From: Euzebya tangerina
GTDB taxonomy: Bacteria > Actinomycetota > Nitriliruptoria > Euzebyales > Euzebyaceae
Reading direction: 5' to 3'
NCBI RefSeq assembly: GCF_003074135.1
Contig: NZ_PPDK01000002.1
Coordinates: 1 to 64,000 of the forward strand
DNA: 64,000 nucleotides
Positions 33,967 to 52,805 of this stretch are shown in pieces. The position numbers and the translations under genes are program-made. The stretch's first letter is position 1. Each line of letters starts with the position of its first letter. The notes beneath the pieces were generated by a model. The model ran no database searches, was not told the origin of the DNA, and worked only from the letters and a program-made list of their open reading frames with translations.

Positions 33967-34731
33967 GTGGTGCCGATCGGCAACCAGGACCGCAGTCGAT
34001 TGGAAGGGTCGGTCATCTCGCAGACGGAGTCTGGTGCGGGTCCACGTGTTCTCGTCGTGGGTCCGACTCGGCTGTTCGTCGAGGGCGTCGTCGCGATCTT
34101 CGCCGAGAGCAACGTCCCGACGCGGGGTGTGCTGAACGATCGCCCTCGGCGGGTGATGCATGAGTTCCGGCAGCACGAACCGGCGGTCGCCGTTGTGGCG
34201 TTCGATGTCTCGACTCACCACGGCGAACTCGAGTTCCTGCTGGAGTTGGTCAGGACGGAGGTTCCGATCCTGGTCCTGACCCGGGCCGATGATCATCGCT
34301 CCGCGGTCATCGCGCTCGACTGCGGCGCCGTGGGCTTCGTGAGCCAGTCCGAGTCCGCCACCGTCCTGCGAGCGGCCACGCGGCGGGCACTTCGAGGGCA
34401 CGCGGTCAACGCCGGCCGGGATGTCGAACGGCTCCGCGCCCGCAAGGACGCTGAGGATCGACGCCGCAGTGAGCACATGGAGCGCTTCATGGACTTGTCC
34501 CCACGAGAGTCCGAGATCCTCGGTGATCTGATGCGGGGCTTGACCGCGGAGCGCATCGTCTCACTTCGCGGAATCACGCTGCACACGGTCAGAAGCCACA
34601 TACGAAGTGTCTTGAAGAAGCTGAACGTCTCCAGTCAACTCGAAGCGGTCGTGATGGCCTACCACGCCGGTTGGCGTGCTCCTGACCGGCAGATTCCGGC
34701 GTTCGAACGACATCTGGGCTCCGCCGGGTAA
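33967..34731 (+). CDS. LuxR/NarL-type regulator with degenerate receiver
   Basis: This 254-aa protein has an N-terminal receiver-like domain and a C-terminal GerE/LuxR helix-turn-helix (LSPRESEILGDLMRGL, then ITLHTVRSHIRSVLKKLN). In the receiver the acidic pair usually at the first strand reads VLVVGPTRLF, and the conserved lysine position reads GFVSQSES. An Asp in VVAFDVSTHHG sits at the usual phosphorylation position. Mg2+-dependent phosphorylation is therefore doubtful, and ligand- or partner-driven control is more likely. A basic helix (DVERLRARKDAEDRRR) joins the domains. No sensor kinase is adjacent. The giant surface-protein gene follows 135 bp downstream and is a candidate target. Confidence 0.82.
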   Translation: MVPIGNQDRSRLEGSVISQTESGAGPRVLVVGPTRLFVEGVVAIFAESNVPTRGVLNDRPRRVMHEFRQHEPAVAVVAFDVSTHHGELEFLLELVRTEVPILVLTRADDHRSAVIALDCGAVGFVSQSESATVLRAATRRALRGHAVNAGRDVERLRARKDAEDRRRSEHMERFMDLSPRESEILGDLMRGLTAERIVSLRGITLHTVRSHIRSVLKKLNVSSQLEAVVMAYHAGWRAPDRQIPAFERHLGSAG

Positions 34732-34866: not shown

Positions 34867-37800
34867 ATGGTCTCGCAGTCGCTTTTTCGATCCTGGATGT
34901 CGTTGACCGCCGTTGTCGGCCTGGCATTCGCAATGCTCATGGCGCCGATGGGCGTCCACGCTGACGCGCAGGAAGCCCCAGCCTCACCGGCCTCCGGTGT
35001 CTTCGAGATCGGCGATCGCCGGTTCCCGGCTGACCAGCCCGGGACCGTCGACCTGTCTCTCCGTCTGGAGGATGCCGACGAGGTCGACCCGGACGCTCCC
35101 ATCAGGGCGGTCGTCACGCTGACCGATCAGACCGGGGCACCGCTGGGCGGGGTGGATGCCACGATCGGCCTGTCGGATGGCCCGGAGATCCCGACCGCAC
35201 TCGACGCGGGCGGCGCCGTGGTCCTGCCGCCGGTCGACGAGCCCGCCTTGACCGTGCGCGATCAGCCGTCCCTGACCGAGGACGGTGTGGCACTGAGCGT
35301 CACCCTGAGCCTTCCCGCCGGCGAGTACGGCCTGTCAGCCCAGGCAATCGCCGAGGTCCCGGGTGTCACCCGCCTGGCTGGTGCCAATCGGTTCGAGACC
35401 GGCGCAGCCGTGGCGGGGCTGGCTCCGGCGCCGGCAGATCAGGTCTTCGTCGCACGCGCTGACCAGTTCCCGGACGCCCTGACCGGGGGGCCGGCCGCTG
35501 CCGTCGCTGACGCCGCCGTCATCCTGGTCAACTCCGACAGCATCCCGGCCGTCAGTGCCATCCAGCTGACCCGCCTGGCCCCACGACAGGTTGTGGTGCT
35601 CGGTGGGGAGAACGCCATCTCCTCGGGAGTGGAGGCCGAGCTCGCCGCGTTTGCCTCCGACGCAGTTGAACCGGTGGTCCGGCTCGCCGGCGCGTCCCGC
35701 TTCGAGACCGCGGCGACCATCGCGCTGTCGTCCTTCGACACGCCCACCGACACGGTGTACCTGGCCACCGGTGGCAACTTCCCGGACGCGCTGGCTGGAG
35801 CCGCTCTCGCGGGGACGACCGGCAGCCCCATCCTGCTGACCGAGACCGCGAGCCTGCCCGGCGCGACAGCAGATGCGCTGGTCGCGTTGGCTCCCTCCAC
35901 CGTGGTGATCCTGGGCGGGGAGGCCGTCGTCAGCGCCGACGTGCAGGCCGAGGCGGGCCAGATCACCGGTGCCGACGTCAGTCGGATTGCCGGTCCTGAG
36001 CGCATCGCCACCGCCGTCGCTGTCGCCCAGCAGTTCGAGCTGCCGGTCGAGGAGATCTTCCTCGCCACCGGCGACAACTTCCCCGACGCCCTGACGGCTG
36101 CGGCGATCGCTGGAGCTCGCGGCGCGCCGTTGCTGTTGGTCCCGTCCACCGGCCCGCTCCCCGAGGTCGTGCGGACCGAGGTCGACCGGTTGGCTCCGAA
36201 TCGGGGCTGGGTCGTCGGTGGCACCGCCGTCGTCAGCGCCGAAGCCGAAGGTGACCTGCGGACCCTGATCCCGCTGCTGGCCGCCAACCCGCTCGGCGAG
36301 CCCTTCGCGGCGACGCTCGAGTGGACCACCGATCTGGTCGGCGGTGAGCAGACCGAGCAGCCGACCCCGGAGCCCACGGACGAGCCGACCGAGCAGCCCA
36401 CGGACGAGCCGACCGAGGAGCCCACGGAGGAGCCGACCGACGAGCCGACGGAGGAGCCAAATGAGGCGCCGGTCCTGACGCCGGTGGGTGCGCAGACCGT
36501 CGATGAGGACGCCGCGGTGTCCATCACGCCGGTCGTGTCGGACCCCGAAGGCGACACGCTGACCTTCGAGGTGACCGGTCTGCCTGCGGGCCTGTCCCTC
36601 GATGAGGCCACCGGCGCGATCACCGGTTCGGTCGGCACGCCTGGGGAGTACCCCATCACGATCACCGTTTCCGATGGTGAGCTGACCGATCAGGACACCT
36701 TCACCCTGACCGTGAACGAGGCGGTCAACGACGCACCCGTCGTGGACACCCCGTCGGACACCGAACTGGTCGAGGACCAGCCGATGGCGCCCATCCAGAT
36801 CGTGGTCACCGATGAGGACGACGACACCTTCACCTTCGAGGCCACCGGTCTGCCCGCGGGTGTGACGATCGACGCCGACTCGGGCGAGATCTCCGGCACC
36901 CCCACGACCGATGGGGTCAACGAGGTCACCATCACCGTCAGCGACGGCAGTGGTGGCTCGGCGACCGTCCAGTTCACACTGACGGTCACAGGCTCCAACG
37001 ACGCCCCAGTCATCGAGCCGATCGATGACGTCGAGGTCGATGAGGGCGAGGCTGTCGAGATTCCGTTCTCCGTCTCGGACGAGGATGGTGGGGCGCTGAC
37101 CGTCTCCGCCGAGGGCCTGCCTGCAGGTCTGACCATCGACGTCGAGTCCGGCACGATCAGCGGTGTGGTCGACGTACCGACCACCGCCGCGGTGACCGTC
37201 ACCGTGACCGACACGGTCGGCGCGAGCGACTCCACCACCTTCACCCTGACCGTCGTCGAGGCCGTCAATGACGCCCCGACCGCAGACGACGCGACCTTCA
37301 CGGTGGCCGAGGACACCCCGACCGGCACGGTCGTGGGGACGGTCATCGCCGACGATGAGGACGGCGACACCCTGACCTTCTCGATCGCCGGTGGGAACAC
37401 CGGCGAGGCCTTCGCGATCGACGGCGCGACCGGTGAGATCACGACCGCGACGGCACTGGACTTCGAGACCACCCCGCAGTACGTGCTGACCGTCGAGGTC
37501 TCTGATGGTGACCTGACCGGCACGGCCGCGATCACGATCGATGTCACTGACGTCGACGAGGTCGAGCCCTGCTCGCCCCTCTCGACCCTGCCGTGTGCAG
37601 AGCTACCTGTGACCCTGCCCTACGACCTGGACTTCGACGGGACCGAGGGTGGCCTGGCAGACACCGGCTTCACGCTGGTGGATCCGCCGTCCAACCGCGG
37701 CGACACCGCCGACACTGCTGACGGCCCGTTGGCCACGCCGACCTTCCCCGACGTCCCGGGCTACGAGCCCGGACTGCTCACGGTCGACGGCTCACTGACG

Positions 37801-40800
37801 ATCGAGGCGACGCAAGGCATCAACTTCGCCCAGCTAGCCGCCGACGCCGATCCCGGTGAGGCCACCAGCACCAACGTCAACAGTCAGCTCAACGCGCTCG
37901 GCGTCGCCGTCCCCGTCGCCGGTGAGACCGTCGAGCTCGAGACCACGCTGGTGGCACCCGAGTTCGCTGGGAACAACAACTCCCAGCAGGCCGGCCTCCT
38001 CTGGTTCGCTGACGAGGACACCTTCGTCAAGCTGGTCGTCGCCCGGACTGGCCCGACCACCAACCGGATCCAGTTGGCGGTGGAGTCACTGGACGCCCCG
38101 ACCGCCGATGACAGCGACGGGATCGCCGAGATCAACTCCGGCAACGTCCCTGACGGCCAAGACGTCGCCCTCCGCATGGTCGTCGACACCGACACCGGCA
38201 TCGTCACCGCCTTCTACAGCGTCGACGGCGGCGCCGAGCAGGCCTTGACCGACGCCACCTTCACCCAACTGCTCCTCCCGGCCGCACTGACTGACGGCGC
38301 GGTGATCGACACGGGTCTGGACCCGACGGTCAGCGCCGGACTCTTCGCCACCAAGCGGCGGGCCACCCCTGCCACCGACGTCACCGCCACGTTCGCGGAC
38401 TGGAGCGTCCAGGTCGCGGAGGCTCCGGCCGAGCCGTGCTCACCCCTCTCCACCCTCCCCTGTGCCGACGTGCCGGTCGAGCTGCCCTACGAGCTCGACT
38501 TCGACGGCAGCGAGGGTGGCCTGGCCGACACCGGCTTCACCCTGGTCGACCCCCCGTCCAACCGCGACGAGCCGAACATCAGCCAGGATCCGGCCCCGGC
38601 CGACCCGACGTTCCCCGACGTCCCCGGCTACGAGCCCGGTCTGCTGACCGTCGACGGCGGCAGCCTGACCATTGATGCCACCAAGGGCATCCAGTACGCC
38701 ACACCCGACCCCGAGCCAGGCCAGCAGACCTCGGGCACTCCGGGCCTCAACGCGCTGATCAACGGCCTCGGCGTCGCCGTCCCCGGCGGCCTGCCGGCCT
38801 ACGAGCTCACCACCACCGTGGTGGCTCCGAACTTCAACACCAGCAGCGGTGGATCTCAGCAGGGCGGCCTGTCCTGGTTCGTCGACGAGGACACCTACAT
38901 CAAGCTGGTCGTCGTCCGGGTGAACAACAGCGACAACCGGGTCCAGTTGGCCGTCGAGTCCCTCGATGATCCGACCGCCGATGCTGCAGACGGCTTCTTC
39001 GAACTCAACGGGTCGACCTTCGCCAACGGCCAGGACGTTGCGCTCCGGATGGAGATCGACGCCGCCAGCGGCACCGTGACCGGGTTCTACACGGTCGACG
39101 GCGGCACCGAGCAGCAGGTGGAGGATGGCGGCGACGACAGCCTCATCGTCCCCGCGGCGCTGCTCGCGGGCACGGCCATCGACGACGACTTCGACCCGAC
39201 CGTGAACGCCGGGCTCTTCGCCACCAAGCGCAGCGCCCCGGCCGCCGACGCGATGTCGGCCACGTTCGCCGAGTTCTCCGTCACCACGCCCGACGCGGCC
39301 AACACGCCGCCGACGATCACGCCCATCGGTGACGTCGAGGCGGTCGAGGGGACGGCCATCGACCCGATCGCGGTCTCCGTGGCCGACGACGACGGCGACG
39401 AGATCACCGTGACCGTCGAGGGCCTGCCAACTGGCGTGGCCTACGACGACACCGACGGGACCATCGTCGGGACCCCGGTGGCCGACAGCGCCGGCGCCTA
39501 CACCGTCACCGTGACGGCCGACGACGGCACCGATACGACGACGGCCACCTTCACCCTCACGGTCATCGAGGAGGCGGACCTCTTCGCGACCAACGTCAAC
39601 TTCTCCGACGCGGGCACCGTCCCGCCTGCGGACTACCTCCGTGACTTCGGTGAGGCCTATGGTCCCCGTACCGGCCCTGAGCAGGGGAGCGACCTGACCT
39701 ACGGCTGGATCGCCGTCGATGACGGCAGCCCCCTCTCGCTGGTCGGACAGGGCCGCAACCGCAGCGCCACGGGTCAGACCAACCTGCTGCTCGCCACCAC
39801 CATCAACATGGAGCACCCCTCCACGCCGCCGACCGGCTTCTGGGAGATCGCGGTGCCGGACGGGACCTATCAGGTCACCGTGGCAGCTGGCGATGCCAGC
39901 GGCGGCACCGACCCGGAGATCCACCGCGTCAACGCCGAGGGCGTCACCATCATCGACGACTTCACGCCGACGGGCCCGAACGGCAGCGACACCCGTCACA
40001 CGACAGCCAGCGGCACGACCGTCGTGACCGACGGCGCCCTGACGCTGGACTACCTCGGTGGCAACGGCGTCAACACCAAGCTCAACTACGTCGAGATCGT
40101 CCAGACCTCGACCGACACCGGGGCTGGCAACACCGCCCCCGAGCTGCTGCTGACGGGCGACCGCACCCTGTTCGTCGGCCAGGACACCATCATCCCCGTC
40201 GAGACGTTCGACGAGGATGGCGACACCGTCACCGTCGACGTCACCGGCCTGCCCGACGGGCTGGCCTTCGACGGCTCTGACATCACCGGAACCGTGGAGG
40301 CCACCGCCCTGGCAGCAAGCCCGTTCACCGTCGAGGTGACGGGCGACGATGGCGAGGCCACCGATACCGAGACCTTCGAGATCGCGGTCATCGACGAGGT
40401 CGCCATCGACGTCAACTTCCAGGACGAGGACTTCGGCACGCCCCCGGCCGGCTACCTGGCCGACATCGGTGAGGCCTTCGGACCACGGACGGGGCCGAAC
40501 CAGGGCAGCGGACTCAGCTACGGCTGGGTCGCCGAGGGCACGACCACGCCCCTGAGTCTGGTCGGCAACGCCCGTGAGCGCGGCCGCGCCGCCATCGATG
40601 ACCTCAATGACACCTTTATCCACATGCAGTACGGGGACATCGGCACCGTCTACGGCGGCAACCCGAACTGCACCAGCAACGTGTGTGAACCGGGCGCCTG
40701 GGAACTCGAGGTGCCGAACGGCCTGTACGAGGTGACCCTCGGGGTCGGCGACCAGCCCGGCAACGGCGGGGTCTACGACTCGCTGCACGCGATCAACATC

Positions 40801-43800
40801 GAGACGGGCCTGGCGATCCTGGCGTTCCAGGCCGACGCCGGCCAGGAGTACCTGCAGGTCACGGCACAGGCCGGTGTTGAGGACGGTCGCCTGACCATCA
40901 ACGCGATCGGCGGCGCCAACACCAAGCTGAACTACGTGCAGGTGCGCAGCCTGGGCACCCAGCCCTTCGCCACGCAGATGATCCCGCCCAACCGCGCCAC
41001 GGACGTGGCGATCGACAGTGCCGTCTCGGCATCGGTCAGCGTGCCCGGCACGGGCCTCGGTGTCGACCCCGATCGCGACACCTCCCTGACCGACGACGCG
41101 GTCAAGCTGTTCGAGGTGACGGCCACGGGCGAGGAGGAGGTCACGGGCAACCGCGGCTCCACCGGCGGCAACGACACGATCGCGTTCAGCGCCCAGCCGG
41201 CGCTCGAGTACGACACGACCTACCGGTACGTCATCGACGGCGTCCTGGACGAGGCCGGCAACACCTTCGGCACCTTCCAGTCCACCTTCACCACGGAGAC
41301 CGAGCCCGACGACCCCGATCCCGGCGTCTGCGCGGACAACCCGACGCTACCCGAGTGCCAGTTCGACGAGATCGACGGCGTCGACTTCGAGCGCGTACTG
41401 CTGCCCACCGCCTCTGGCGACAACGGCAAGTTCATCGCCTCGATGCAGGTCCACCAGGGGCACCTCTGGTACACGACCATCGGTCAGGGCATGTACCGCC
41501 ACGAGATCCTCCCCGACGGCACCCTCGGCGCACAGCAGGACCTCGGCGTGCTGGTCGGCCGGGCGGCAATCGGTCTGGTCTTCGACCAGGGCGACCCGGA
41601 CATGGCGTGGGTCACCCACGCGACGCCCAACCTGGGCAACGAGTCGGCCCGGATCGGGTCGAAGGTCTCGCGGATCGACTTCTCCGACCCCGCCAGCCCG
41701 ATCGTCCAGGACATCTTCGTCAACCTGCCGCGCTCGCAGAAGGACCACCTGTCCAACTCGATGATCTACGGACCATCGGGTGACGGCGGGGGCGACTGGC
41801 TGTACTTCCTGCAGGGCTCCAACCAGGCCGCCGGTGACACCGACGGCGCCTGGGGCAACCGCGGCGAGACGCAACTGACCGCAGCACTGCTGCGCTTCGA
41901 CCCACAGGACGTGCTGGCCGAGGTGGCCGCCAACGGTCCGATCGACGTCGCGACCGTCGAGGTCGGCGGCAGCTACGACCCGTTCGCGCCCGGCGCCCCG
42001 CTGGAGGTCTATGCGACGGGCATCCGCAACGCCTTCGACCTCGTGTGGCACTCCAACGGCCAGATCTATGTGCCGACCAACGGGACCGCTGCCGGCGGCT
42101 CGAGCCCCGGCGTCTTGGAGGTCGATGGCAGCCTGATCATGCAGTCGGATGACCCCCGCGACGCCCAGACGGGCTTCGACCAGGGCACCGACGTGACCGA
42201 TGTGTGCGCCACCCGGCGTGCCGACGGCGGCTACACCGGCGGCGACGTGACCGCCCACACGGGCTTGCCGACCCAACTCGACTACATCTTCACCGTCGAG
42301 GAGGGCGGCTACTACGGCCACCCCAACCCCACCCGCTGCGAGTGGGTGATGAACAACGGCTCCGACTCGCTGAACGGCACGGGCAACTTCTACCCCGCCG
42401 GCACCGACGCCGACCCCAACTACGACCTGGATGGGGCCTACAGCCTCGACTTCAACAAGAGCCCGAACGGCGTCATCGAGTACACCTCCGAGACCTTCGG
42501 TGGTGCGCTCCAGGGCCGCGTGATGATCGTGCGCTTCTCCAACAACGACGACATCCTGACCATGCAGGTCGCGCCAGATGGCACGATCCTGGGTGAGCAG
42601 GCCGGAACCACCATCGGTGGCTTCTCCGGCGGGTACGCCGACCCCTTGGAGGTCATCGAGGACACCACGGTCAATCCCGGCAACCTCTACCTCAACCAGT
42701 ACAACCGGGCCGGCGAGCCACAGCAGCTCTACCTGCTGCGCGTGCCGGACGGCCAGCAGGCCAGCGGCATCGACGTCACCAACGATCAGGACGCCGTCAC
42801 CACCGACGACCTGATCATGTCGGCCACGCTCAACGGCGAGCAGCCCACGGACAGCGAGACGATCACGGTCACCAACACCGGTGCCGAGGACGTCGCGGTG
42901 ACGGGCCAGGTCAGCGGGGCCGACGCCGGCCAGTTCACGCTGGACACCGTCGGGACGGTTCCGGCCGGCAGCAGCGTCGAGGTGACGCTGACGTTCGACC
43001 CCTCGGGCACCCCCGGGGTCCGCACCGCGACACTCGAGTTCAGCACCGCCGAGGCCACCGAGACCCTCGACGTCCGCGCCCTGGCGCACCAAGGTCAGGA
43101 GGGCGGCGAGGAGCCGACGCTCCAGCAGGTCATAGACACCTTCGAGTGGGGCCTGGACTCCGGCTGGAGTGGCCTTGCCGGCGGGACCGATCCGGCTCCC
43201 GTGGGCGATGAGATCGCCATCGACTTGTTCGAGCGTGCCGACGACGGCCCGGTCACGATGACCCCGGTCGCCGGATTCGCCCCCTTCGAGGCCTTGCCGT
43301 TCGGCTGGTACGCCGACACCGACGGGCCGGCCAACCTCACCGAGCTGGCCGTGGTCGACAACGGCCAGCAGCAGACGCTGATCCCGACCTACACAGGGGC
43401 CACCCTCGAGTTCGACCCCGGCACCGAGGCGTTCGGGGTGTACTACGACTCGAACTTCTTCAACCGGGTCGGCTACACCGAGGACGCCCGCAACACCGAC
43501 GGTGTCGCCCACCGGGCCCGGATCTACCCGCTCCCCGGCGACACGTTCCTGGTCGGCTTCGAAGACGCCTCCAACGGTGACTACCAGGACTACGTCTTCG
43601 TCCTAGAGAACGTCGTAGCGGCCGGTGACGGTGGAGGTGGCGAGCCGACCGGCGACCCGATCCAGGTCAACTTCCAGTCCGAGACCGCGACGGTGCCCGA
43701 CGGCTACCTGCGGGACTTCGGCCAGCCCTACGGCGCTCGGACCGACGCCGACCAGGGCACGGGCCTGACCTACGGCTGGATCGATGACGAGACCTTCGAT

Positions 43801-46698
43801 CCGCTCTCGCTGGTCGGCAACGGCCGTGACCGAGACAGCAACGACGATCAGCGCCTGGACACCCTGATGCACATGGACCTGCCACCAGAGGGCCAGGGCG
43901 GCGTCCTGGCCGACGGGTCATGGCAGATCGCCGTCGTCGACGGCAGTTACGAGGTCACCGTCTCCGTCGGCGATCCCAACCTGGGTGGTGCGGACGAGAC
44001 CCACACGATCAACGTCGAGGGCATCACCGCAGTCGACGCCTTCGGAAAGTCGACGGCCCCGAACGGCTCCGACGCACGGCACACGACCAGCACGGTCCAG
44101 GTGGAGGTGACCGACGGCGCCCTGACGGTCGACCAGATCGGCGGGACGAACACCAAGATCAACTACATCGAGATCACCCCGCTCGACGGCGGGATCGGTG
44201 AGACGATCGGGCAGGTCAACTTCCAGCCAGCCGGCTCGCCCACCCCACCTGACTGGGTCGCCGACATCGGCGAGCTCTTCGACGCCGGCCGAGGCTACGG
44301 CTGGGTCGACACCGAGGGCGGCGCGGACAAGACCGACGACACCCGTGACCGTGCCCAGGACACCGACCCGCTGGACGGCACCCTGATCATCGTCGACGAC
44401 GACACCGTCGACAGCGTGGTGAACGGCACCTGGGAGTACACCCTCCCGAACGGCGACTACGTGATCGAGGCCTCAGCCGGCGACCCCGGCTTCGCCGACT
44501 CCACGCACGCCTTCACCGCGGAGGGACAGACGCTGATCCCGGCCACGACGCCGGGCAGTCCGTCGGAGTACACCACCGGGAGTGCCACCGTGTCGGTGGC
44601 CGATGGCGCCCTGACCGTGGTCTCGACCGGCCTCAACGCCAAGCTCCAGTGGCTGCGCATCTCCTCCACCGGCGGGCAGGACGTCGTCCCGCCACAGGTC
44701 GGCATCGACCTGTCCGGTGACGGCGACGGCACCACGTTCACCGGTCCGGTGACGGTCACGGTGAGCGCCACGGATCGAACCCTCGAGTTCGTCGACATCG
44801 TCGTCGACGGCACCCCCCGAACAGTCGACCTGACCAACTACGACGAGCCGTTCGAGGTGACGGGCACCGGCGAGCACACCGTCGAGGTGACCGCCACCGA
44901 CGGCGCCGGGAACGAGACGGTCGAGACCGCCACCTTCACCATCGTCGAGTTGGGCGACGGGGCGCTGACCATCACCAATCCCGAGGCGGCGCCCTTCGAC
45001 GACCGGCTGGTCATGAGCCGGATCGAGTCGCCGGTGAGCGACCCGGCCACGAATGAGACCGCGCAGGTGATCCTCGGCAACGACGGCAGCGAGACCATCA
45101 CCGTGTCGGCGCTCGCCATCGACGGAGACGACTTCGAGGTCAGCGACGGTCCGACGCTGCCGGCCACCATCCCGGTCGGCGACGAGGTCACCGTCGAGGT
45201 GACGTTCGTCGGCACCGGGACCGGCAACAACACCAACTTCGACAGCGTCCTCCTCGTCTCCCACGACGGTGCCGACGGCCCGACGGCGACGATCGAGCTG
45301 GGCGCCATCTGGCAGGAACAGTCCGAGGGCGGCAACGAGCCCAACGTCGAGGAGATCGCGCAGGCCTTCGGGTTCGGCACCACCATCCGCAACCCGGGCG
45401 AGGCCATCAACAACCAGGGTCGGTTGGAGACCATCGGCGACGAGATCCTGACCCGCAGCTGGGAACTGGCTGACCCCAGCCAGCCTGCGACCGTCCGGCA
45501 GTTGGCGGCCTACCACACCTGCTGCAACAACACGGCGTCCTTCGGCTGGCACCCGGTGGGCCAGAAGAACAACTGGACCCAGGTGCTGACCCACGACGGG
45601 CAGTGGGCCCAGAGCCTGCTGCCGCGGATCTCGGGCTCCGACACCCAACCCGCGTTCACCACGTTCGACCCGGCACCGGATGAGTTCACGCTCCGGATCG
45701 ATCCTGAGTCGGGCGACTGGACCCTCAACAACACGGGACCGGACAGCTGCGGGCCCGGCAACGACGGCTGCCAGCTGGGCCACCACCTACGGGTGTGGCC
45801 CGTCGAGGACCGCGACGGCGTCCCGATCCCCGGCTCCTACCTAGTCGTGATGGATTACTCGGGCATCAACTACGACTTCAACGACAACGAGTACCTGGTC
45901 ACCAACATCCGTCCGGCGACGCCGGAGGAGACGACCGCTCCGGCCGTGCCCGCCGGGCTGGCAGGGACCGCGGTCGACGGTGAGGTCGAGCTCACCTGGG
46001 ACGGTGTGGCCGACGCCGACCTCACCGGCTACCAGGTGGAGCGCGCCACCAGCCCCACGGGCCCCTGGACCTCCCTCACCGGGATCGCCGTCAGCGGGAC
46101 GACCTTCGTCGACGCCCCTCCGGCGTCGGGCACCTACTCCTACCGGGTCCTGGCAGAGGACGTCTCCGGCAACCTCTCTGGCCCCTCAGCCGTCGCGACG
46201 GTCGAGGTCACCGGGGTGGCGGCGCCAGCGATCCGGATCAACGCCGGGGGTGGTGCCGTGACATCAGGCGGGATCGCCTGGGAGGCCGACCGTGACTTCA
46301 TCGGCGGCTCCACCTACAGCAACGGCAATCTGACGGCGAACGAGATCACCGGGGCCCAGAGCCCGGCGATCCACCTGACCGAGCGCAGCGGCGCCGGTGG
46401 GCACGCCTACGAGATCCCGCTGACCAACGGCACCTACGACGTGACCCTGCACATGGCGGAGATCTACTTCGGCGCCGAGGGCGCCGGGCCCGCCGGGGCC
46501 GGGAACCGGATCTTCGACGGCACCGTCGAGGGTCAGCTGGTGGTGGACGACCTCGACATCTTCGCCGAGGTCGGTGCCCAAACGGCGCTGACCCGGTCCG
46601 CGACGGTGACGGTCACTGACGGCTCGCTCTCGATCGATATGCAGGCCTCGGTGAACCAGGCCAAGCTGTCGGGCATCGAGATCGTCCCCGCCGGCTGA
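34867..46698 (+). CDS. Giant secreted mosaic surface protein (3943 aa)
   Basis: The start is ATG 34867, behind GGGGAGGG. A signal peptide is followed by a short beta-rich region. Three CWB2 units lie at about residues 165-470 and a Glu/Pro/Thr repeat linker at 496-535. The order is then: Ig/cadherin-like repeats (534-900), two Cys-containing modules (901-1475, each with CSPLSTLPCA), an Ig-like unit, malectin-like domain 1 (1571-1748), another Ig-like unit, malectin-like 2 (1845-2031), a SbsA-type Ig unit, a sugar-dehydrogenase-like beta-propeller (2154-2632; ATGIRNAFDLVW, GGYYGHPNP), a Hydin-like unit, a DUF4114-like unit, malectin-like 3 and 4 (2926-3268), an Ig-like unit, second Hydin-like and DUF4114-like units, FN3 (3688-3783) and a final malectin domain (3785-3943). 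The protein is very acidic and carries several carbohydrate-binding folds. Attachment or polysaccharide capture is inferred. Confidence 0.88.
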   Translation: MVSQSLFRSWMSLTAVVGLAFAMLMAPMGVHADAQEAPASPASGVFEIGDRRFPADQPGTVDLSLRLEDADEVDPDAPIRAVVTLTDQTGAPLGGVDATIGLSDGPEIPTALDAGGAVVLPPVDEPALTVRDQPSLTEDGVALSVTLSLPAGEYGLSAQAIAEVPGVTRLAGANRFETGAAVAGLAPAPADQVFVARADQFPDALTGGPAAAVADAAVILVNSDSIPAVSAIQLTRLAPRQVVVLGGENAISSGVEAELAAFASDAVEPVVRLAGASRFETAATIALSSFDTPTDTVYLATGGNFPDALAGAALAGTTGSPILLTETASLPGATADALVALAPSTVVILGGEAVVSADVQAEAGQITGADVSRIAGPERIATAVAVAQQFELPVEEIFLATGDNFPDALTAAAIAGARGAPLLLVPSTGPLPEVVRTEVDRLAPNRGWVVGGTAVVSAEAEGDLRTLIPLLAANPLGEPFAATLEWTTDLVGGEQTEQPTPEPTDEPTEQPTDEPTEEPTEEPTDEPTEEPNEAPVLTPVGAQTVDEDAAVSITPVVSDPEGDTLTFEVTGLPAGLSLDEATGAITGSVGTPGEYPITITVSDGELTDQDTFTLTVNEAVNDAPVVDTPSDTELVEDQPMAPIQIVVTDEDDDTFTFEATGLPAGVTIDADSGEISGTPTTDGVNEVTITVSDGSGGSATVQFTLTVTGSNDAPVIEPIDDVEVDEGEAVEIPFSVSDEDGGALTVSAEGLPAGLTIDVESGTISGVVDVPTTAAVTVTVTDTVGASDSTTFTLTVVEAVNDAPTADDATFTVAEDTPTGTVVGTVIADDEDGDTLTFSIAGGNTGEAFAIDGATGEITTATALDFETTPQYVLTVEVSDGDLTGTAAITIDVTDVDEVEPCSPLSTLPCAELPVTLPYDLDFDGTEGGLADTGFTLVDPPSNRGDTADTADGPLATPTFPDVPGYEPGLLTVDGSLTIEATQGINFAQLAADADPGEATSTNVNSQLNALGVAVPVAGETVELETTLVAPEFAGNNNSQQAGLLWFADEDTFVKLVVARTGPTTNRIQLAVESLDAPTADDSDGIAEINSGNVPDGQDVALRMVVDTDTGIVTAFYSVDGGAEQALTDATFTQLLLPAALTDGAVIDTGLDPTVSAGLFATKRRATPATDVTATFADWSVQVAEAPAEPCSPLSTLPCADVPVELPYELDFDGSEGGLADTGFTLVDPPSNRDEPNISQDPAPADPTFPDVPGYEPGLLTVDGGSLTIDATKGIQYATPDPEPGQQTSGTPGLNALINGLGVAVPGGLPAYELTTTVVAPNFNTSSGGSQQGGLSWFVDEDTYIKLVVVRVNNSDNRVQLAVESLDDPTADAADGFFELNGSTFANGQDVALRMEIDAASGTVTGFYTVDGGTEQQVEDGGDDSLIVPAALLAGTAIDDDFDPTVNAGLFATKRSAPAADAMSATFAEFSVTTPDAANTPPTITPIGDVEAVEGTAIDPIAVSVADDDGDEITVTVEGLPTGVAYDDTDGTIVGTPVADSAGAYTVTVTADDGTDTTTATFTLTVIEEADLFATNVNFSDAGTVPPADYLRDFGEAYGPRTGPEQGSDLTYGWIAVDDGSPLSLVGQGRNRSATGQTNLLLATTINMEHPSTPPTGFWEIAVPDGTYQVTVAAGDASGGTDPEIHRVNAEGVTIIDDFTPTGPNGSDTRHTTASGTTVVTDGALTLDYLGGNGVNTKLNYVEIVQTSTDTGAGNTAPELLLTGDRTLFVGQDTIIPVETFDEDGDTVTVDVTGLPDGLAFDGSDITGTVEATALAASPFTVEVTGDDGEATDTETFEIAVIDEVAIDVNFQDEDFGTPPAGYLADIGEAFGPRTGPNQGSGLSYGWVAEGTTTPLSLVGNARERGRAAIDDLNDTFIHMQYGDIGTVYGGNPNCTSNVCEPGAWELEVPNGLYEVTLGVGDQPGNGGVYDSLHAINIETGLAILAFQADAGQEYLQVTAQAGVEDGRLTINAIGGANTKLNYVQVRSLGTQPFATQMIPPNRATDVAIDSAVSASVSVPGTGLGVDPDRDTSLTDDAVKLFEVTATGEEEVTGNRGSTGGNDTIAFSAQPALEYDTTYRYVIDGVLDEAGNTFGTFQSTFTTETEPDDPDPGVCADNPTLPECQFDEIDGVDFERVLLPTASGDNGKFIASMQVHQGHLWYTTIGQGMYRHEILPDGTLGAQQDLGVLVGRAAIGLVFDQGDPDMAWVTHATPNLGNESARIGSKVSRIDFSDPASPIVQDIFVNLPRSQKDHLSNSMIYGPSGDGGGDWLYFLQGSNQAAGDTDGAWGNRGETQLTAALLRFDPQDVLAEVAANGPIDVATVEVGGSYDPFAPGAPLEVYATGIRNAFDLVWHSNGQIYVPTNGTAAGGSSPGVLEVDGSLIMQSDDPRDAQTGFDQGTDVTDVCATRRADGGYTGGDVTAHTGLPTQLDYIFTVEEGGYYGHPNPTRCEWVMNNGSDSLNGTGNFYPAGTDADPNYDLDGAYSLDFNKSPNGVIEYTSETFGGALQGRVMIVRFSNNDDILTMQVAPDGTILGEQAGTTIGGFSGGYADPLEVIEDTTVNPGNLYLNQYNRAGEPQQLYLLRVPDGQQASGIDVTNDQDAVTTDDLIMSATLNGEQPTDSETITVTNTGAEDVAVTGQVSGADAGQFTLDTVGTVPAGSSVEVTLTFDPSGTPGVRTATLEFSTAEATETLDVRALAHQGQEGGEEPTLQQVIDTFEWGLDSGWSGLAGGTDPAPVGDEIAIDLFERADDGPVTMTPVAGFAPFEALPFGWYADTDGPANLTELAVVDNGQQQTLIPTYTGATLEFDPGTEAFGVYYDSNFFNRVGYTEDARNTDGVAHRARIYPLPGDTFLVGFEDASNGDYQDYVFVLENVVAAGDGGGGEPTGDPIQVNFQSETATVPDGYLRDFGQPYGARTDADQGTGLTYGWIDDETFDPLSLVGNGRDRDSNDDQRLDTLMHMDLPPEGQGGVLADGSWQIAVVDGSYEVTVSVGDPNLGGADETHTINVEGITAVDAFGKSTAPNGSDARHTTSTVQVEVTDGALTVDQIGGTNTKINYIEITPLDGGIGETIGQVNFQPAGSPTPPDWVADIGELFDAGRGYGWVDTEGGADKTDDTRDRAQDTDPLDGTLIIVDDDTVDSVVNGTWEYTLPNGDYVIEASAGDPGFADSTHAFTAEGQTLIPATTPGSPSEYTTGSATVSVADGALTVVSTGLNAKLQWLRISSTGGQDVVPPQVGIDLSGDGDGTTFTGPVTVTVSATDRTLEFVDIVVDGTPRTVDLTNYDEPFEVTGTGEHTVEVTATDGAGNETVETATFTIVELGDGALTITNPEAAPFDDRLVMSRIESPVSDPATNETAQVILGNDGSETITVSALAIDGDDFEVSDGPTLPATIPVGDEVTVEVTFVGTGTGNNTNFDSVLLVSHDGADGPTATIELGAIWQEQSEGGNEPNVEEIAQAFGFGTTIRNPGEAINNQGRLETIGDEILTRSWELADPSQPATVRQLAAYHTCCNNTASFGWHPVGQKNNWTQVLTHDGQWAQSLLPRISGSDTQPAFTTFDPAPDEFTLRIDPESGDWTLNNTGPDSCGPGNDGCQLGHHLRVWPVEDRDGVPIPGSYLVVMDYSGINYDFNDNEYLVTNIRPATPEETTAPAVPAGLAGTAVDGEVELTWDGVADADLTGYQVERATSPTGPWTSLTGIAVSGTTFVDAPPASGTYSYRVLAEDVSGNLSGPSAVATVEVTGVAAPAIRINAGGGAVTSGGIAWEADRDFIGGSTYSNGNLTANEITGAQSPAIHLTERSGAGGHAYEIPLTNGTYDVTLHMAEIYFGAEGAGPAGAGNRIFDGTVEGQLVVDDLDIFAEVGAQTALTRSATVTVTDGSLSIDMQASVNQAKLSGIEIVPAG

Positions 46699-47637: not shown

Positions 47638-49029
47638 TCAGGACTGGCTGCGGTTCGCGGCGATGACCTGGGCGTACCACCGGGCGCTGGCCTTCGGGGT
47701 GCGCTCGAGCGTGTCGAAGTCGACCCGGACGATGCCGAACCGCTTGCTGAACCCCAGTGCCCACTCGAAGTTGTCGAGCAACGACCAGACGTGATAGCCG
47801 ACCACGTCGATGCCATCGCGACTGGCGGCTGCGACCACCTGCAGGTGGTCGTGCAGGTAGGCGATCCGGTCCTGGTCGTCGATCGACCCGTCGTGTTGGA
47901 CGACGTCGGGGAACGCCCCGCCGTTCTCACTGATCACGATCGGTAGGTCACGGTAGGCCGCGCCGACACGCCGCAGCACCCGGTCCAGACCCTGGGGCTC
48001 GATGCCCCACCCCATCTCAGTCCGTGGAGGCGGCGGCTCCACGCCGATGGTCTCGGTCGCTCCCGGGAAGCCCAGGAGCGAGGGTGCTCCGTCCTGGTGG
48101 GCGACGTGGGTGACGTTGTAGTAGTTCACCGCCAGCCAGTCGATCGGCTGGGCGATCGCCGCCAGCTCGTCGGTGTCGATCTGGTCAGCCACGCCGAAGG
48201 TGTGATGGTGCTCCCTGATCTGGTCGGGATAGCGGCCCTGCAGCACGCCGTCGAGGAACAGCTGGTTCTGGACCATGTCGGCCTTGGCAGCAGCCGCCGT
48301 GTCCGCCGCCGAGTCCGTCGCCCCGGTCGCGGGGATCAGGTTCAGCGCGATCGTGACCTCGTCATCCGGATTGGGCTCGGTCGACCGCAGCACCGCCGCG
48401 GCGCGGTGATGGGCCAGCAGCATGTTGTGGGCAGCCAGGTAGGCGGTCCCTGCGTCGGTGACGCCGGGTGCGTGGACACCGCTGTGGTGCCCGAGGAAGG
48501 CGGCGCAGTACGGCTCGTTCAGGGTCATCCACGTCGTGGCCAGGTCCGCCAACGTCTCCTTGGCGCGGGTGGCGTACTCGGCGAACCACTGCGACGACTC
48601 GGGGTTGGCCCACCCGCCCTGGTCCTGCAGGCGTTGCGGCAGGTCCCAGTGGAACAGGCAGACGACTGGGCGGATCCCGTGCTCGACCAGCTCCTCGCAG
48701 ACCGAGCGGTAGAAGGTCGCACCCAGCGGGTTGACCGTCTTGTCGTCCTCGGGCAGCAGCCGTGACCACGACAGGCTGAAGCGGTAGGTGTCGACTCCGA
48801 GCTGTGCCATCAGGGCGATGTCGTCACGGAACCGGTGGTAGTGGTCGCAGCTGACGTCGGCGTTCTCGCCGCGATCGACCTTGCCGGGGGTGTGGCTGAA
48901 GGTGTCCCAGATGGATGGGGCGCGACCATCGACGGCGACGGCTCCTTCGATCTGGTGGGCCGAGGTTGCAACGCCCCAGCTGAAGCCCGCTGGCATGCGC
49001 AGCGAGGTCGGATCCGGTGTGGTCGTCAC
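47638..49029 (-). CDS. GH1-family beta-glucosidase
   Basis: This 463-aa enzyme hydrolyses beta-glucosides such as cellobiose in the cytoplasm. It starts at a GTG that overlaps the permease stop (GTGA at 49026-49029). Glycoside hydrolase family 1 signatures are FSWGVATSAHQIEGA near the start, the acid/base glutamate in TWMTLNEPYC (about residue 171) and the nucleophile in VISENGGAF (about residue 368). The conserved tail WSLLDNFEWALGFSKRFG is intact. There is no signal peptide, so substrate must be imported by the ABC system encoded just upstream. It is the last gene of the sugar operon. Confidence 0.93.
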   Translation of the reverse strand: MTTTPDPTSLRMPAGFSWGVATSAHQIEGAVAVDGRAPSIWDTFSHTPGKVDRGENADVSCDHYHRFRDDIALMAQLGVDTYRFSLSWSRLLPEDDKTVNPLGATFYRSVCEELVEHGIRPVVCLFHWDLPQRLQDQGGWANPESSQWFAEYATRAKETLADLATTWMTLNEPYCAAFLGHHSGVHAPGVTDAGTAYLAAHNMLLAHHRAAAVLRSTEPNPDDEVTIALNLIPATGATDSAADTAAAAKADMVQNQLFLDGVLQGRYPDQIREHHHTFGVADQIDTDELAAIAQPIDWLAVNYYNVTHVAHQDGAPSLLGFPGATETIGVEPPPPRTEMGWGIEPQGLDRVLRRVGAAYRDLPIVISENGGAFPDVVQHDGSIDDQDRIAYLHDHLQVVAAASRDGIDVVGYHVWSLLDNFEWALGFSKRFGIVRVDFDTLERTPKASARWYAQVIAANRSQS

Positions 49030-50129
49030 TTGCTCACTCCTGACAGGTCGATGCCCTTCAGGAAGACCCGTTGGGCGAAGAAGAAGATCACGAGGGGGAT
49101 GGCCAGAGCCAGCAGTGCGCCGGCCTGGATGAGGTGCGGGGAGGTGTCGAAGAGCGTGTTGAACACCTGCAGACCGACGGCGATGGGTTGCAGGTCCCGT
49201 CGCGTCGAGAGGTAGACCAGCGGCTCGAAGAAGTCGTTCCAGGCGTAGAAGAAGTGGAAGATCCCGACCGCGACCAACGCCGGCCGGGCCTGGGGAAGCA
49301 GGACCGACCACAAGGTCCGCAGCGGGCCGGCACCGTCGATCGCGGCGGCCTCGTCCAGGTCCTTCGGCAGGGTCAGGAAGTACTGGCGCAGCAAGAAGAC
49401 GTTGTAGGCGTTGCCGAAGAAGTGGGGGATGATCAGCGGCAGCCAGGTTCCGACCCAGCCGATCTTGAAGAACAGCGCGTAGGTCGGCACGAGGGTGACG
49501 AAACGTGGGAGGATGATCGTCGCGACGAGGACGATGAAGATCGTTCGCTTGAACGGCATCTGGAAGCGCGACAGGCCGTAGGCGACCAACGTCGAGGCGA
49601 TCAGCGTCCCGATCATCCCGAGTCCGGCGATCGCCACGGTGTTGCGCAGCAGGACCAGGAAGTCCATCTGCTCCCATGCGGCCGAGAAGTTGTCGGTCTG
49701 CGGACTGAAGGTGTAGGCGGGCTCCAACTGCCGCCAGTTGCCTTCCCACTCGATCGGCGCAGCCTCGAGGTCATCGGGATCGACGTACATCGACGCCTGC
49801 CGGCCCGGCTGCAGCAGCGCCAGATTGGCGGTGCTGCCGTCGGGCAGGGAGACCTCGTAGAGGTCGAGCTCTTCACCGTCGTAGGCCACCTGACCGGGCG
49901 CCGCCGGATAGAGCGGTGCGCGGAAGTCCTGGATCATCGCCTCGGTCTTCAGCGCCGTCGCACCCATGTACGCCAGCGGAGAGAGGTACACGATGGCGAT
50001 GCCCGTCGCGACCATCGTGACCAGCCCGGCTGCCAGGATCTTGCGGATCCCCCCGTCGGTGTCGCCGAATCGCCGGGTCGGCTCGCCGCTGGACTGCAGG
50101 CGCTCGACCGTTGATGTCAACGAGCTCAT
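49026..50129 (-). CDS. Sugar ABC transporter permease, MalG/CebG-like
   Basis: This 367-aa permease is the second membrane component of the importer. It starts at ATG (50127-50129), overlapping the first permease stop. Six hydrophobic segments and the ATPase-docking loop LDEAAAIDGAGPLRTLWSVLLP are visible. Between the first and second membrane segments there is an unusually long extracytoplasmic insertion of about 75-100 residues (from MIQDFRAPLYPAAP to the EPAYTFSPQTDNF area). Ordinary MalG proteins of about 280 aa lack this size. It could contact the binding lipoprotein. The gene is coupled to the GH1 gene downstream. Confidence 0.9.
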   Translation of the reverse strand: MSSLTSTVERLQSSGEPTRRFGDTDGGIRKILAAGLVTMVATGIAIVYLSPLAYMGATALKTEAMIQDFRAPLYPAAPGQVAYDGEELDLYEVSLPDGSTANLALLQPGRQASMYVDPDDLEAAPIEWEGNWRQLEPAYTFSPQTDNFSAAWEQMDFLVLLRNTVAIAGLGMIGTLIASTLVAYGLSRFQMPFKRTIFIVLVATIILPRFVTLVPTYALFFKIGWVGTWLPLIIPHFFGNAYNVFLLRQYFLTLPKDLDEAAAIDGAGPLRTLWSVLLPQARPALVAVGIFHFFYAWNDFFEPLVYLSTRRDLQPIAVGLQVFNTLFDTSPHLIQAGALLALAIPLVIFFFAQRVFLKGIDLSGVSK

Positions 50130-51109
50130 GACCGCTCCCCGAACTCGTAGTGCACCCAGTACTTGGCCGACCAGAAGAGCACCCCGGTGACGACGACGCC
50201 GGCGATGAACAGCATCCAGGCCAGCGTCGCGGCGTAGCCCATGTTCTGGAGCCGGAACAGGGTTCGGTAGAAGTACATCGAGTAGAAGAACGTCGAGCCG
50301 TTCGGATCACCCGAGCCGTTCTTCAGCACGAACGGCACGAGGAAGTACTGGAACAGCCCGATCAGCGCAACGACGATGTTGTAGAAGAGCACGGGGGAGA
50401 TGAGCGGAATCGTCACGTGCCGGAACATCGCCAGCGAGCCGGCACCGTCCACAGCCGCTGCGTCGTAGAGATCCTCTGGCACCGAGTTCATGCCGGCGAT
50501 GAAGATGATCATCGCGTTGCCGACGCCCCACAGCGCGATCAGCGTGAGGGTCGGGTAGATCCAGACCTCGGAGTTCAGCCAGTTCGGGCCGGGGATGCCG
50601 ACGGCGCCGAGCGCCCGGTTGGCCCAGCCGGTCTGGGAGTTGAGCATTCCGTTGAACACGAGCACCGCGGCGACGAACGGGATGACCGACGGCAGATAGA
50701 ACAGCGTCCGGAAGAACGAGCGGCCCCACAGGTTCTTCGAGGTCAACAGGTAGGCGAACCCCAGTGGCACCAGGATGGTGAAGGGGAGGGAGAGAACACC
50801 GAACTTCACGGTCACCCAGGCCGAATTGATGACCTCGGGGTCGCCGAACAGGCGGCGCCAGTTGTCCAGCCCGACGAAGGACGTGGGCTCGGCCGAGGTG
50901 AGGTTGAAGTCGGTGAAGGAGAACCACAGCGACGCGGCCATCGGCAGCGCGTAGAGCACGAAGAAGCCGATGACCCAGGGGGAGGCGAAGACAAGTCCGA
51001 TGCGCCCCTGTCGGCGATGCAGGCGCGATGGGGGAGGGGGATCAGGCTCATCCTCCGGAAGGGCCGGCGGTGGGCCGACCCTCCCGGTGGGCGCAGACGC
51101 GACGGACAT
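50126..51109 (-). CDS. Sugar ABC transporter permease, MalF/CebF-like
   Basis: This 327-aa permease starts at the ATG complement at 51107-51109 (MSVASAPTGRVG). A 50-residue longer frame is Arg-rich and lies on the solute-binding gene's 3' part. Six hydrophobic segments and the docking loop LYDAAAVDGAGSLAMFRHVTIP are clear. It forms the first half of the membrane channel with the following permease, whose start overlaps its stop. It lies 20 bp after the binding-protein gene. No ATPase gene is in the operon. Confidence 0.91.
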   Translation of the reverse strand: MSVASAPTGRVGPPPALPEDEPDPPPPSRLHRRQGRIGLVFASPWVIGFFVLYALPMAASLWFSFTDFNLTSAEPTSFVGLDNWRRLFGDPEVINSAWVTVKFGVLSLPFTILVPLGFAYLLTSKNLWGRSFFRTLFYLPSVIPFVAAVLVFNGMLNSQTGWANRALGAVGIPGPNWLNSEVWIYPTLTLIALWGVGNAMIIFIAGMNSVPEDLYDAAAVDGAGSLAMFRHVTIPLISPVLFYNIVVALIGLFQYFLVPFVLKNGSGDPNGSTFFYSMYFYRTLFRLQNMGYAATLAWMLFIAGVVVTGVLFWSAKYWVHYEFGERS

Positions 51110-51129
51110 GGGCGGCGTCGGGGCCGTGT

Positions 51130-52701
51130 CTACTCCGCCGCGGCGAAGATGCCGTCCAGTTCGGCTTCCAGCTCGCCAGCCGCGGCCGCGATGTCGAGGT
51201 CGGGGTCGGAGAGTTGAGCACTCTCGAAGTCGGCCATGGCCAGCTTGTACTCGTCCCACGCCGGGGTCGCCTGCTCGTGACTCGGGACGTCGGAGAACTG
51301 CGCGGAGTCCCGGGCGACCTGCCAGTTGACGCCCTGGGGAAAGGTCTCATCGAGGTCGGCGTAGAAGGCCTCGGTCAACGCCGGGTCGGCCGGTGCGGCG
51401 CCGTAGGCGTTCAGCAACGGAAGGGCGGCGTCGTCCAGCAGGTAGGTGAGGACCTCGAAGGCCTCGTCCGGATGCTCGGTCGACTCGAAGATGCGGAACG
51501 TGTCACCGTGCATCTTCGCGGTGACCGTGCCCTGGTGGGAGGGGAAGACGGCGATGTCGAAGAACTCGAGGCCGTTGCCGTCCTCGTCGCGGACGCAACA
51601 GGTGTACCAGAGGTGGGAGTTGGCCATCGCCACGTTGCCGGAGCTGAACGGGTTGCCGCTCAGCAGGTCGGAGTCGAACTGCTCCTGGCTCGGCGCCGCC
51701 CCGACGTCCCACACCAGGTCGTGGTACCACTGCCACTCGTCCACCCACTGGTCGGGGATGTCGGCGCTACCGTCGTCGGCCACCGGGTAGCCGGCGCCGA
51801 ACGCCGTGCCCTGGGCGTACATGAGGCTGACCCACTGGTGGACGAAACCCCACTGGACGGTCTGGGTCCGGTCGAAGGCATCGTCGGTGGCATCGACCCC
51901 GTTCGCGTCCACGGTCAGGAACGCCGCCAGCTCCGCGACCTTGTCCCAGTCCCAGGTGCCCTCGAACTCCGTTCCCTCGCCGTAGATCGCGGTCCCGTCC
52001 TCGCCGTACTCCTGCGGCGGGTAGGGCAGGCCGGCCTCATCGAACAGCTCGGTGTTGTAGTAGATGAAGGAAGGGAAGGACGCGAACGGCAGTCCGGGCA
52101 GGGTCCCGTCCTCCTCCCGGAAGTTCTCCACGGTCTCCTCGTCGAAGCGGGTCAGATCGACGCCCGTCTCCTCGACGAACGGCTCGAGGTCGAGGTACAG
52201 GCCGGCGTAGGAGTTCGAGCCGTCCCGTCCCACCGGGCCGACGATGTCGGGCGCGTTGCCGCCCGCGATCTGGGTCGAGAGGGTGTCGTAGGCGACGTCG
52301 TTCTCCACGATCTCGAGCACGACCTCGATCTCGGACTGGCTGTCGTTGAACTCGGCCACGACCTCCTCCTGCGCCGCGATCTGCTCCGGCTGCCCGCCGG
52401 ACCCGAGGCCGACGAACCAGCGGATCTCGACCCGGTCGCCGGAGCTGCTGTCCTCGCCGCCCGTGGCGTCCTCCGTGGCTTCGTCGTCGTCGATCTCCTC
52501 CGACATGGCCTCGTCGTTGGCCTCGTCGGACTCGGTGTCCTCCTCGGCTGCTCCCGCCGCGGCGTCTGCGGCGTCGTCGCTGGTGGCGGCCTCCGAGCCG
52601 GTGTCACCCCCCTCCGCGGTGTCCCCGCCGCCGCACGCGGCTGCGATCAGGACCAGAATCAGTGCCACGGCCACATGGGCGCGGCGGTCTATTGTTGTCA
52701 T
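51130..52701 (-). CDS. Sugar-binding lipoprotein of ABC importer
   Basis: This 523-aa extracellular solute-binding protein has a lipobox LIAAAC with Cys23 as the lipidation site. The ATG at 52699-52701 follows AAGGAGAAGG at ideal spacing. Residues 24-95 form an unusual Asp/Glu/Ala-rich low-complexity tether. The mature domain then begins at VEIRWFVGLGSGG. The fold is the type 1 (MalE-like) family, with conserved segments such as GNAPDIVGPVGRDG and PGLPFASFPSFIYYNTELFD. The ligand is predicted to be a beta-glucoside from the GH1 gene in the operon. Confidence 0.9.
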   Translation of the reverse strand: MTTIDRRAHVAVALILVLIAAACGGGDTAEGGDTGSEAATSDDAADAAAGAAEEDTESDEANDEAMSEEIDDDEATEDATGGEDSSSGDRVEIRWFVGLGSGGQPEQIAAQEEVVAEFNDSQSEIEVVLEIVENDVAYDTLSTQIAGGNAPDIVGPVGRDGSNSYAGLYLDLEPFVEETGVDLTRFDEETVENFREEDGTLPGLPFASFPSFIYYNTELFDEAGLPYPPQEYGEDGTAIYGEGTEFEGTWDWDKVAELAAFLTVDANGVDATDDAFDRTQTVQWGFVHQWVSLMYAQGTAFGAGYPVADDGSADIPDQWVDEWQWYHDLVWDVGAAPSQEQFDSDLLSGNPFSSGNVAMANSHLWYTCCVRDEDGNGLEFFDIAVFPSHQGTVTAKMHGDTFRIFESTEHPDEAFEVLTYLLDDAALPLLNAYGAAPADPALTEAFYADLDETFPQGVNWQVARDSAQFSDVPSHEQATPAWDEYKLAMADFESAQLSDPDLDIAAAAGELEAELDGIFAAAE

Positions 52702-52716
52702 TGCCTTCTCCTTCGG

Positions 52717-52730
52717 TGGTAACGCTCTGG
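52717..52730 (-). promoter_or_regulatory. Degenerate LacI-type operator near binding-protein gene
   Basis: On the minus strand CCAGAGCGTTACCA matches 9 of 14 positions of the perfect operator TGAGAGCGCTCTCA found before the regulator. It ends 15 bp before the start of the binding-protein gene. It could be a weaker regulatory site for the sugar operon. Confidence 0.35.
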
Positions 52731-52743
52731 CGGGGAGGTAGTG

Positions 52744-52774
52744 GGACCACCGGACTCGAACCTCCGGTGGTTCC
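52744..52774 (-). terminator. Hairpin between LacI regulator and binding protein
   Basis: ACCACCGGA (52746-52754) and TCCGGTGGT (52763-52771) form a perfect 9-bp stem with an 8-nt loop, extended by GG/CC with a one-base bulge. It lies after the regulator stop and before the operon. It probably terminates or attenuates read-through from the regulator gene. The loop resembles a tRNA T-loop, but no cloverleaf fits. Confidence 0.55.
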
Positions 52775-52805
52775 ACGCTGGCTTCGTTCGTCGGGGATAG
52801 CTGGG

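Follow-up and report, generated by a model that had tools for sequence, protein, structure and literature searches.

A giant CWB2-bearing mosaic protein of Euzebya tangerina with lectin-like modules and an embedded propeller of the PQQ sugar dehydrogenase superfamily

The gene at positions 34867-46698 (+) of the window (the whole stretch of 64,000 nucleotides that was analysed) encodes a giant protein whose mosaic architecture is real and well supported. The β-propeller embedded in it is confirmed, by profile alignments and modelled structure, as a member of the soluble PQQ sugar dehydrogenase superfamily, with an sGDH-type fold and the His and Arg-Asn positions aligned. The reading that we prefer, tentatively and with something short of even confidence, is that of a wall-anchored polysaccharide-binding protein whose propeller may carry out sugar oxidation, and whose core would have been acquired as a unit and joined to a resident CWB2 anchor. 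Its features, and the gene directly upstream, are these:

33967..34731, +, response regulator of LuxR type, orphan, immediately 5' of the giant gene (Pfam GerE 1.4e-11, Response_reg 1.4e-4)
34867..46698, +, giant secreted protein, 3943 aa (open frame, GC3 pattern, domain order common to relatives)
34867..34965, +, signal peptide, aa ~1-33 (by eye: basic n-region, hydrophobic core, HADA cleavage-like site)
35359..36291, +, three CWB2 repeats, aa 165-475 (PF04122 E=1.3e-50; PDB Cwp6/Cwp8 matches)
36346..36462, +, Pro/Thr/Glu-rich linker, aa 494-532 (PF04886 PT repeat)
36463..37566, +, He_PIG / Big_9 / cadherin stalk, aa 533-900 (Pfam)
37567..39291, +, tandem concanavalin A-like domains, aa 901-1187 and 1188-1475 (PF17851; hhalign E=2e-70; DNA repeats D4, D5, D7, D9)
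39292..39573, +, Ig domain of He_PIG type, aa 1476-1569 (Pfam; domain mapping of relatives)
39574..40110, +, malectin-like a, aa 1570-1748 (no Pfam match alone; one family with b, c and d)
40396..40956, +, malectin-like b, aa 1844-2030 (hhalign; AlphaFold model; AGA-YXIM_GBD weak in relatives)
40960..41301, +, Big_5 Ig-like domain, aa 2032-2145 (PF13205 E=5e-7; present in 44/44 relatives)
41344..42771, +, GSDH / PQQ-sugar-dehydrogenase-like β-propeller, aa 2160-2635 (family profiles, AlphaFold, Foldseek; His2294, Arg2387, Asn2388)
42760..43086, +, HYDIN/ASH-type Ig 1, aa 2632-2740 (PF22544 E=1.1e-6)
43090..43632, +, DUF4114-like 1, aa 2742-2922 (weak PF13448 match; homologous to copy 2)
43654..44676, +, malectin-like c and d in tandem, aa 2930-3106 and 3112-3270 (AlphaFold; Foldseek FERONIA/ANXUR)
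44689..44952, +, OmpL47-type Ig, aa 3275-3362 (NF047446 E=1.3e-7, under its cut-off)
44962..45324, +, HYDIN/ASH-type Ig 2, aa 3366-3486 (hhalign to copy 1, probability 94.5%)
45328..45930, +, DUF4114-like 2, aa 3488-3688 (hhalign to copy 1)
45934..46218, +, fibronectin type III-like domain, aa 3690-3784 (by eye; the same segment is found again in relatives)
46222..46695, +, canonical malectin, C-terminal, aa 3786-3943 (PF11721 E=1.1e-28; PDB malectin matches)

The frame runs from ATG to stop with no internal stop codons, and the protein has a predicted mass of about 407 kDa and a pI of about 4.05 (~4.1). GC3 lies between 0.81 and 0.95 across all 200-codon blocks. That the frame joins unrelated genes through an error of assembly or annotation, a danger raised for assembly in an earlier note on this DNA, is very improbable. 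It would fit a fusion that GC3 is slightly lower over the first ~1000 codons (0.81-0.89, as against mostly 0.91-0.95 later), and that CWB2 was found in none of the mapped propeller-family relatives, some of which are without their 5' end. However, frame and GC3 are unbroken, and the order from the Ig region onward is found also in an Acidimicrobiia MAG (L021) and in Nocardioides (L023-L026); since other genera keep the same domain order, the frame is not taken to be an assembly fusion. The CWB2-to-stalk junction is the only part of the giant without an independent copy in relatives. The description of a single-gene mosaic is thus upheld by the unbroken frame, the coding GC3, and profile and structure support for the main domain classes.

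The whole protein and, separately, its segments were scanned against Pfam, with Big_5 appearing only in the latter. The domains over cut-off are three CWB2, five He_PIG, a cadherin, Big_9, one malectin, one HYDIN-type Ig and one GH43_C2 concanavalin-like domain, so that both the CWB2 anchoring and the cadherin/Ig-like repeats of the earlier note hold good; three domains that it had missed are the Big_5, the OmpL47-type Ig and the FN3-like domain. The three CWB2 repeats (Pfam, 170 bits) are arranged in tandem behind a signal peptide read from the sequence, as three tandem repeats are likewise found in the C. difficile Cwp proteins (PDB 5j72, 5j6q), which require all three to bind the wall polymer (PMC5842191); the difference is in the cargo, which here is a lectin/propeller mosaic. 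The N-terminal anchor resembles other proteins of the genus (42% over aa 36-464 in genome G002), and G000, G001, G002 and G003 each have more than 150 CWB2 matches (lower bounds), with 50 in an Egibacteraceae genome. The genome that carries the giant (G000) has a further open frame of about 3941 aa with CWB2 (G000:C2:122590-123786). The CWB2-anchored form of the propeller/lectin core looks special, being apparently new and seen only in this protein.

The earlier note counted five malectin-like domains. One of these, at the C-terminus, is canonical (100.8 bits against a Pfam cut-off of 23, PF11721). The inner four form a single family, with mutual hhalign E values of 1e-47 to 1e-73; scanned alone, none of these segments matches PF11721 in Pfam, and their kinship with canonical malectin is remote (hhalign probability 91-96% over ~80-90 residues). 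An AlphaFold model of aa 2632-3272 (pLDDT 82) was matched by Foldseek to the tandem malectin-like ectodomains of FERONIA/ANXUR, HYDIN-type Ig and CBM-bearing glycosidases, the whole-model TM-scores being low because the model is multidomain. What had been called paired Cys-rich modules are in fact two concanavalin A-like domains in tandem (PF17851), each with a CSPLSTLPC head; cysteine makes up 0.4% of the entire protein. With 83-87% DNA identity in its best blocks, this pair is a tandem duplication. The DUF4114-like assignment survives in part: the match to PF13448 is weak (E=0.033, 15.6 bits) and under the cut-off of 27, but hhalign shows copies 1 and 2 to be homologues (E=1e-33). The proposed modular duplication is borne out by the DNA identity of the concanavalin-like pair and by hhalign for the HYDIN plus DUF4114-like pairs; self-BLAST of the giant for repeats returned nothing, and the repeats were found by profile comparison.

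Searches with the single propeller sequence were uninformative. Alone, aa 2145-2635 gave no meaningful Pfam or PDB match; the giant's own sequence did not pass the Pfam cut-off for GSDH (PF07995) in either the whole or the segment scan, and against NCBIfam only a weak TIGR02604 match was found. The propeller was therefore assigned through its relatives. A 7-sequence family profile identified A. calcoaceticus sGDH in the PDB (E=1.1e-8), aligning Asp143-His144 with Asp2293-His2294 and Arg228-Asn229 with Arg2387-Asn2388, and a 40-sequence profile also matched sGDH (E=1.3e-7). Of 40 relatives, 29 matched PF07995 at E<=0.1, the best of them at 2.8e-10, and profile-profile comparison by hhalign with seven canonical GSDHs gave E=2.5e-12 over nearly the whole propeller. 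The catalytic His and Arg-Asn pair (the His2294, Arg2387 and Asn2388 positions) is invariant in 40/40 relatives, as are two further basic residues, His2485 and Arg2490. Residues 1842-2640 were modelled with AlphaFold (pLDDT 86.8, pTM 0.85), and the 12 best PDB matches of this model in Foldseek are all PQQ sugar dehydrogenases, among them the fungal AA12 enzyme 6jt5. The sugar-dehydrogenase-like propeller of the earlier note is thus borne out through these relatives' profiles and the structural model.

The fold and the His144/Arg228/Asn229 positions are common to sGDH (PDB 1c9u/5min) and the aldose sugar dehydrogenases (3das, 3a9g; PF07995), although identity in the structural alignment is only ~13%, there are large insertions, and the propeller here is one part of a multi-domain surface giant. 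The corresponding residues of the fungal enzyme CcPDH, His363, Arg430 and Asn431, contact PQQ (PMC6881789). For Lys377 of sGDH and its C-terminal arginines that bind the PQQ carboxylate no counterpart was matched, the alignment being uncertain there as it is at the Ca2+ ligands, and PQQ binding is therefore graded as plausible and no more.

A genome scan, for which the query was four closer sequences, the 7-sequence alignment being too diverse for this use, found the propeller family at no fewer than 346 loci, spread over Actinomycetota, Bacteroidota, Chloroflexota and other groups. The best 80 of these were kept, and 86 ORFs were domain-mapped. The minimal form is ML-Big_5-propeller (ML, malectin-like) of ~730-1060 aa, for example in Streptomyces, Actinoplanes and Segetibacter. 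About 20 actinobacterial giants have the core order ML-Big_5-propeller-HYDIN-DUF4114-like-ML-ML; the order of this protein is found in the Acidimicrobiia MAG, Desertihabitans (L022), Serinicoccus (L027) and Nocardioides, and also in Georgenia, Arthrobacter, Microbacteriaceae and Demequina. The Nocardioides, Serinicoccus and Desertihabitans giants gave no CWB2 match. The view that few bacterial genes combine such modules was therefore overstated. Many Bacteroidota members have a T9SS-like C-terminus and Chloroflexota members end in a T/P-rich tail (both by eye), and database plasmid proteins named 'malectin domain-containing carbohydrate-binding' or 'NPCBM' belong to the same propeller family. 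In the library of papers that was searched, none pairs malectin with sorbosone dehydrogenase; the core is apparently a broad family, with a function so far undescribed in the literature.

Several members deserve mention in their own right. The genome of our giant encodes a second one (L015:5574-17960 (-), G000:C3; stop-to-stop 4129 aa), which combines three malectin, three LamG-like and HYDIN domains and has relatives in G028 and G040. Its GSDH-like propeller is more divergent, with Asn at the Asp143 position (SEENH motif). A giant relative in an Egibacteraceae MAG (L041/L016) has two nearly identical concanavalin-like repeats, and its frame becomes non-coding-looking inside a C-terminal kelch-like stretch, which suggests a frameshift. 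A locus labelled Bacillota (L036, Planococcus sp. APC 4015) falls within the actinobacterial clade beside Serinibacter/Microbacterium, reflecting a mislabelled record, contamination or transfer.

In the propeller tree, this protein pairs with L021 (support 100/98), followed by Desertihabitans and Serinicoccus, and the copies from Egibacteraceae, of the same order as the host, fall elsewhere. L021 (WHTL01000193.1), to which the propeller is most closely related, lies on a contig of 7.5 kb that was binned as Acidimicrobiia in MAG Dino_bin35, an assignment that is uncertain at such a short length. A close copy of the giant was found in 1 of 60 related genomes (G018, inferred to be an Egibacteraceae MAG). 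Among the best 80 of the 346 loci, the nearest cores (~70-75%) are in other actinobacterial orders. Locus comparison shows that in three sister species both flanking genes, the 2-isopropylmalate-synthase-like one and that for FAA hydrolase, are still in place, with the giant gene absent at the syntenic site. These two observations together suggest that the core was horizontally transferred into this lineage, and from tree, synteny and patchy presence the simplest reading would be that the transferred core was fused to a resident CWB2 anchor of the genus type. A phage origin was rejected, the search having found no phage match.

The LuxR-type gene has no close copy in the three sister species, and its product is a possible regulator of the giant gene. 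On the other side, and on the opposite strand, the giant gene adjoins a sugar-uptake operon (47638-53816 (-)) of a GH1 beta-glucosidase, two ABC sugar permeases, a solute-binding protein and a LacI regulator. Two partners were looked for and rejected: own PQQ synthesis, there being no PqqE over cut-off in this genome, and an AA10 LPMO, of which the genome has none.

Capture or modification of polysaccharide, as the earlier note proposed, is a plausible if putative role. By analogy with the C. difficile Cwps, the CWB2 repeats would hold the protein on a wall polymer, with the PT linker and the Ig/cadherin stalk presumably pushing it outward, as family knowledge suggests. The concanavalin-like, malectin-like and malectin modules may then capture glycans, and the propeller could oxidise reducing sugars of the bound glycan or released from it, using PQQ/Ca2+ drawn from the surroundings. 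The core would have come from other Actinomycetota. The CAZy AA12 enzyme CcPDH of Coprinopsis similarly combines a PQQ-dehydrogenase propeller, with the same His/Arg/Asn, and a carbohydrate-binding module (PMC6881789), and in one AA12 enzyme a CBM enhances function (PMC5960967); in contrast to CcPDH, the giant is bacterial, has no recognised AA8 cytochrome domain, and carries many CBM-like modules rather than one CBM1.

The main rival to an oxidising propeller, and one with a substantial though less than even chance of being right, is that the propeller serves for binding only, as a scaffold without catalysis, and that the protein is purely a wall adhesin or lectin. Hedgehog-interacting protein, a binding protein with the GSDH fold, is also among the matches of the propeller, both by the 40-sequence profile and by Foldseek; a single GSDH-like domain sits amid many binding modules; and PqqE over cut-off is absent not only here but in 12 of 13 tested genomes of propeller-family relatives. 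However, this genome also has canonical GSDH genes, equally without PqqE, and PQQ can be scavenged, for example for E. coli Asd. The invariance of the catalytic His and Arg-Asn in 40 diverse relatives also speaks for catalysis. It is improbable, if less so than a fusion, that the propeller acts on a substrate other than free sugar or with another cofactor, in the manner of the remotely similar SSL/SGL lyase- or lactonase-like propellers: weak SSL_N, SGL and Vgb_lyase matches were found in the relatives' propellers, but the whole-length profile match and the top structural matches are all to PQQ dehydrogenases.

Our preferred reading of a wall-anchored, putatively oxidising protein may be extended to the whole family, although we regard the extension as rather unlikely. 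The family would then be a widespread and undescribed group of PQQ sugar dehydrogenases armoured with lectins, the equivalent in bacteria of the AA12-CBM enzymes, which oxidise the ends of surface polysaccharides with scavenged PQQ, and whose core spreads between lineages and is re-mounted on local anchors (CWB2, T9SS-type C-termini and others). If the propeller is active, this would be a large family of surface-tethered sugar dehydrogenases missed by stock profiles (Pfam gives no score for the propeller of this giant), and would illustrate how a giant enzyme/lectin core switches anchors between wall types after transfer.
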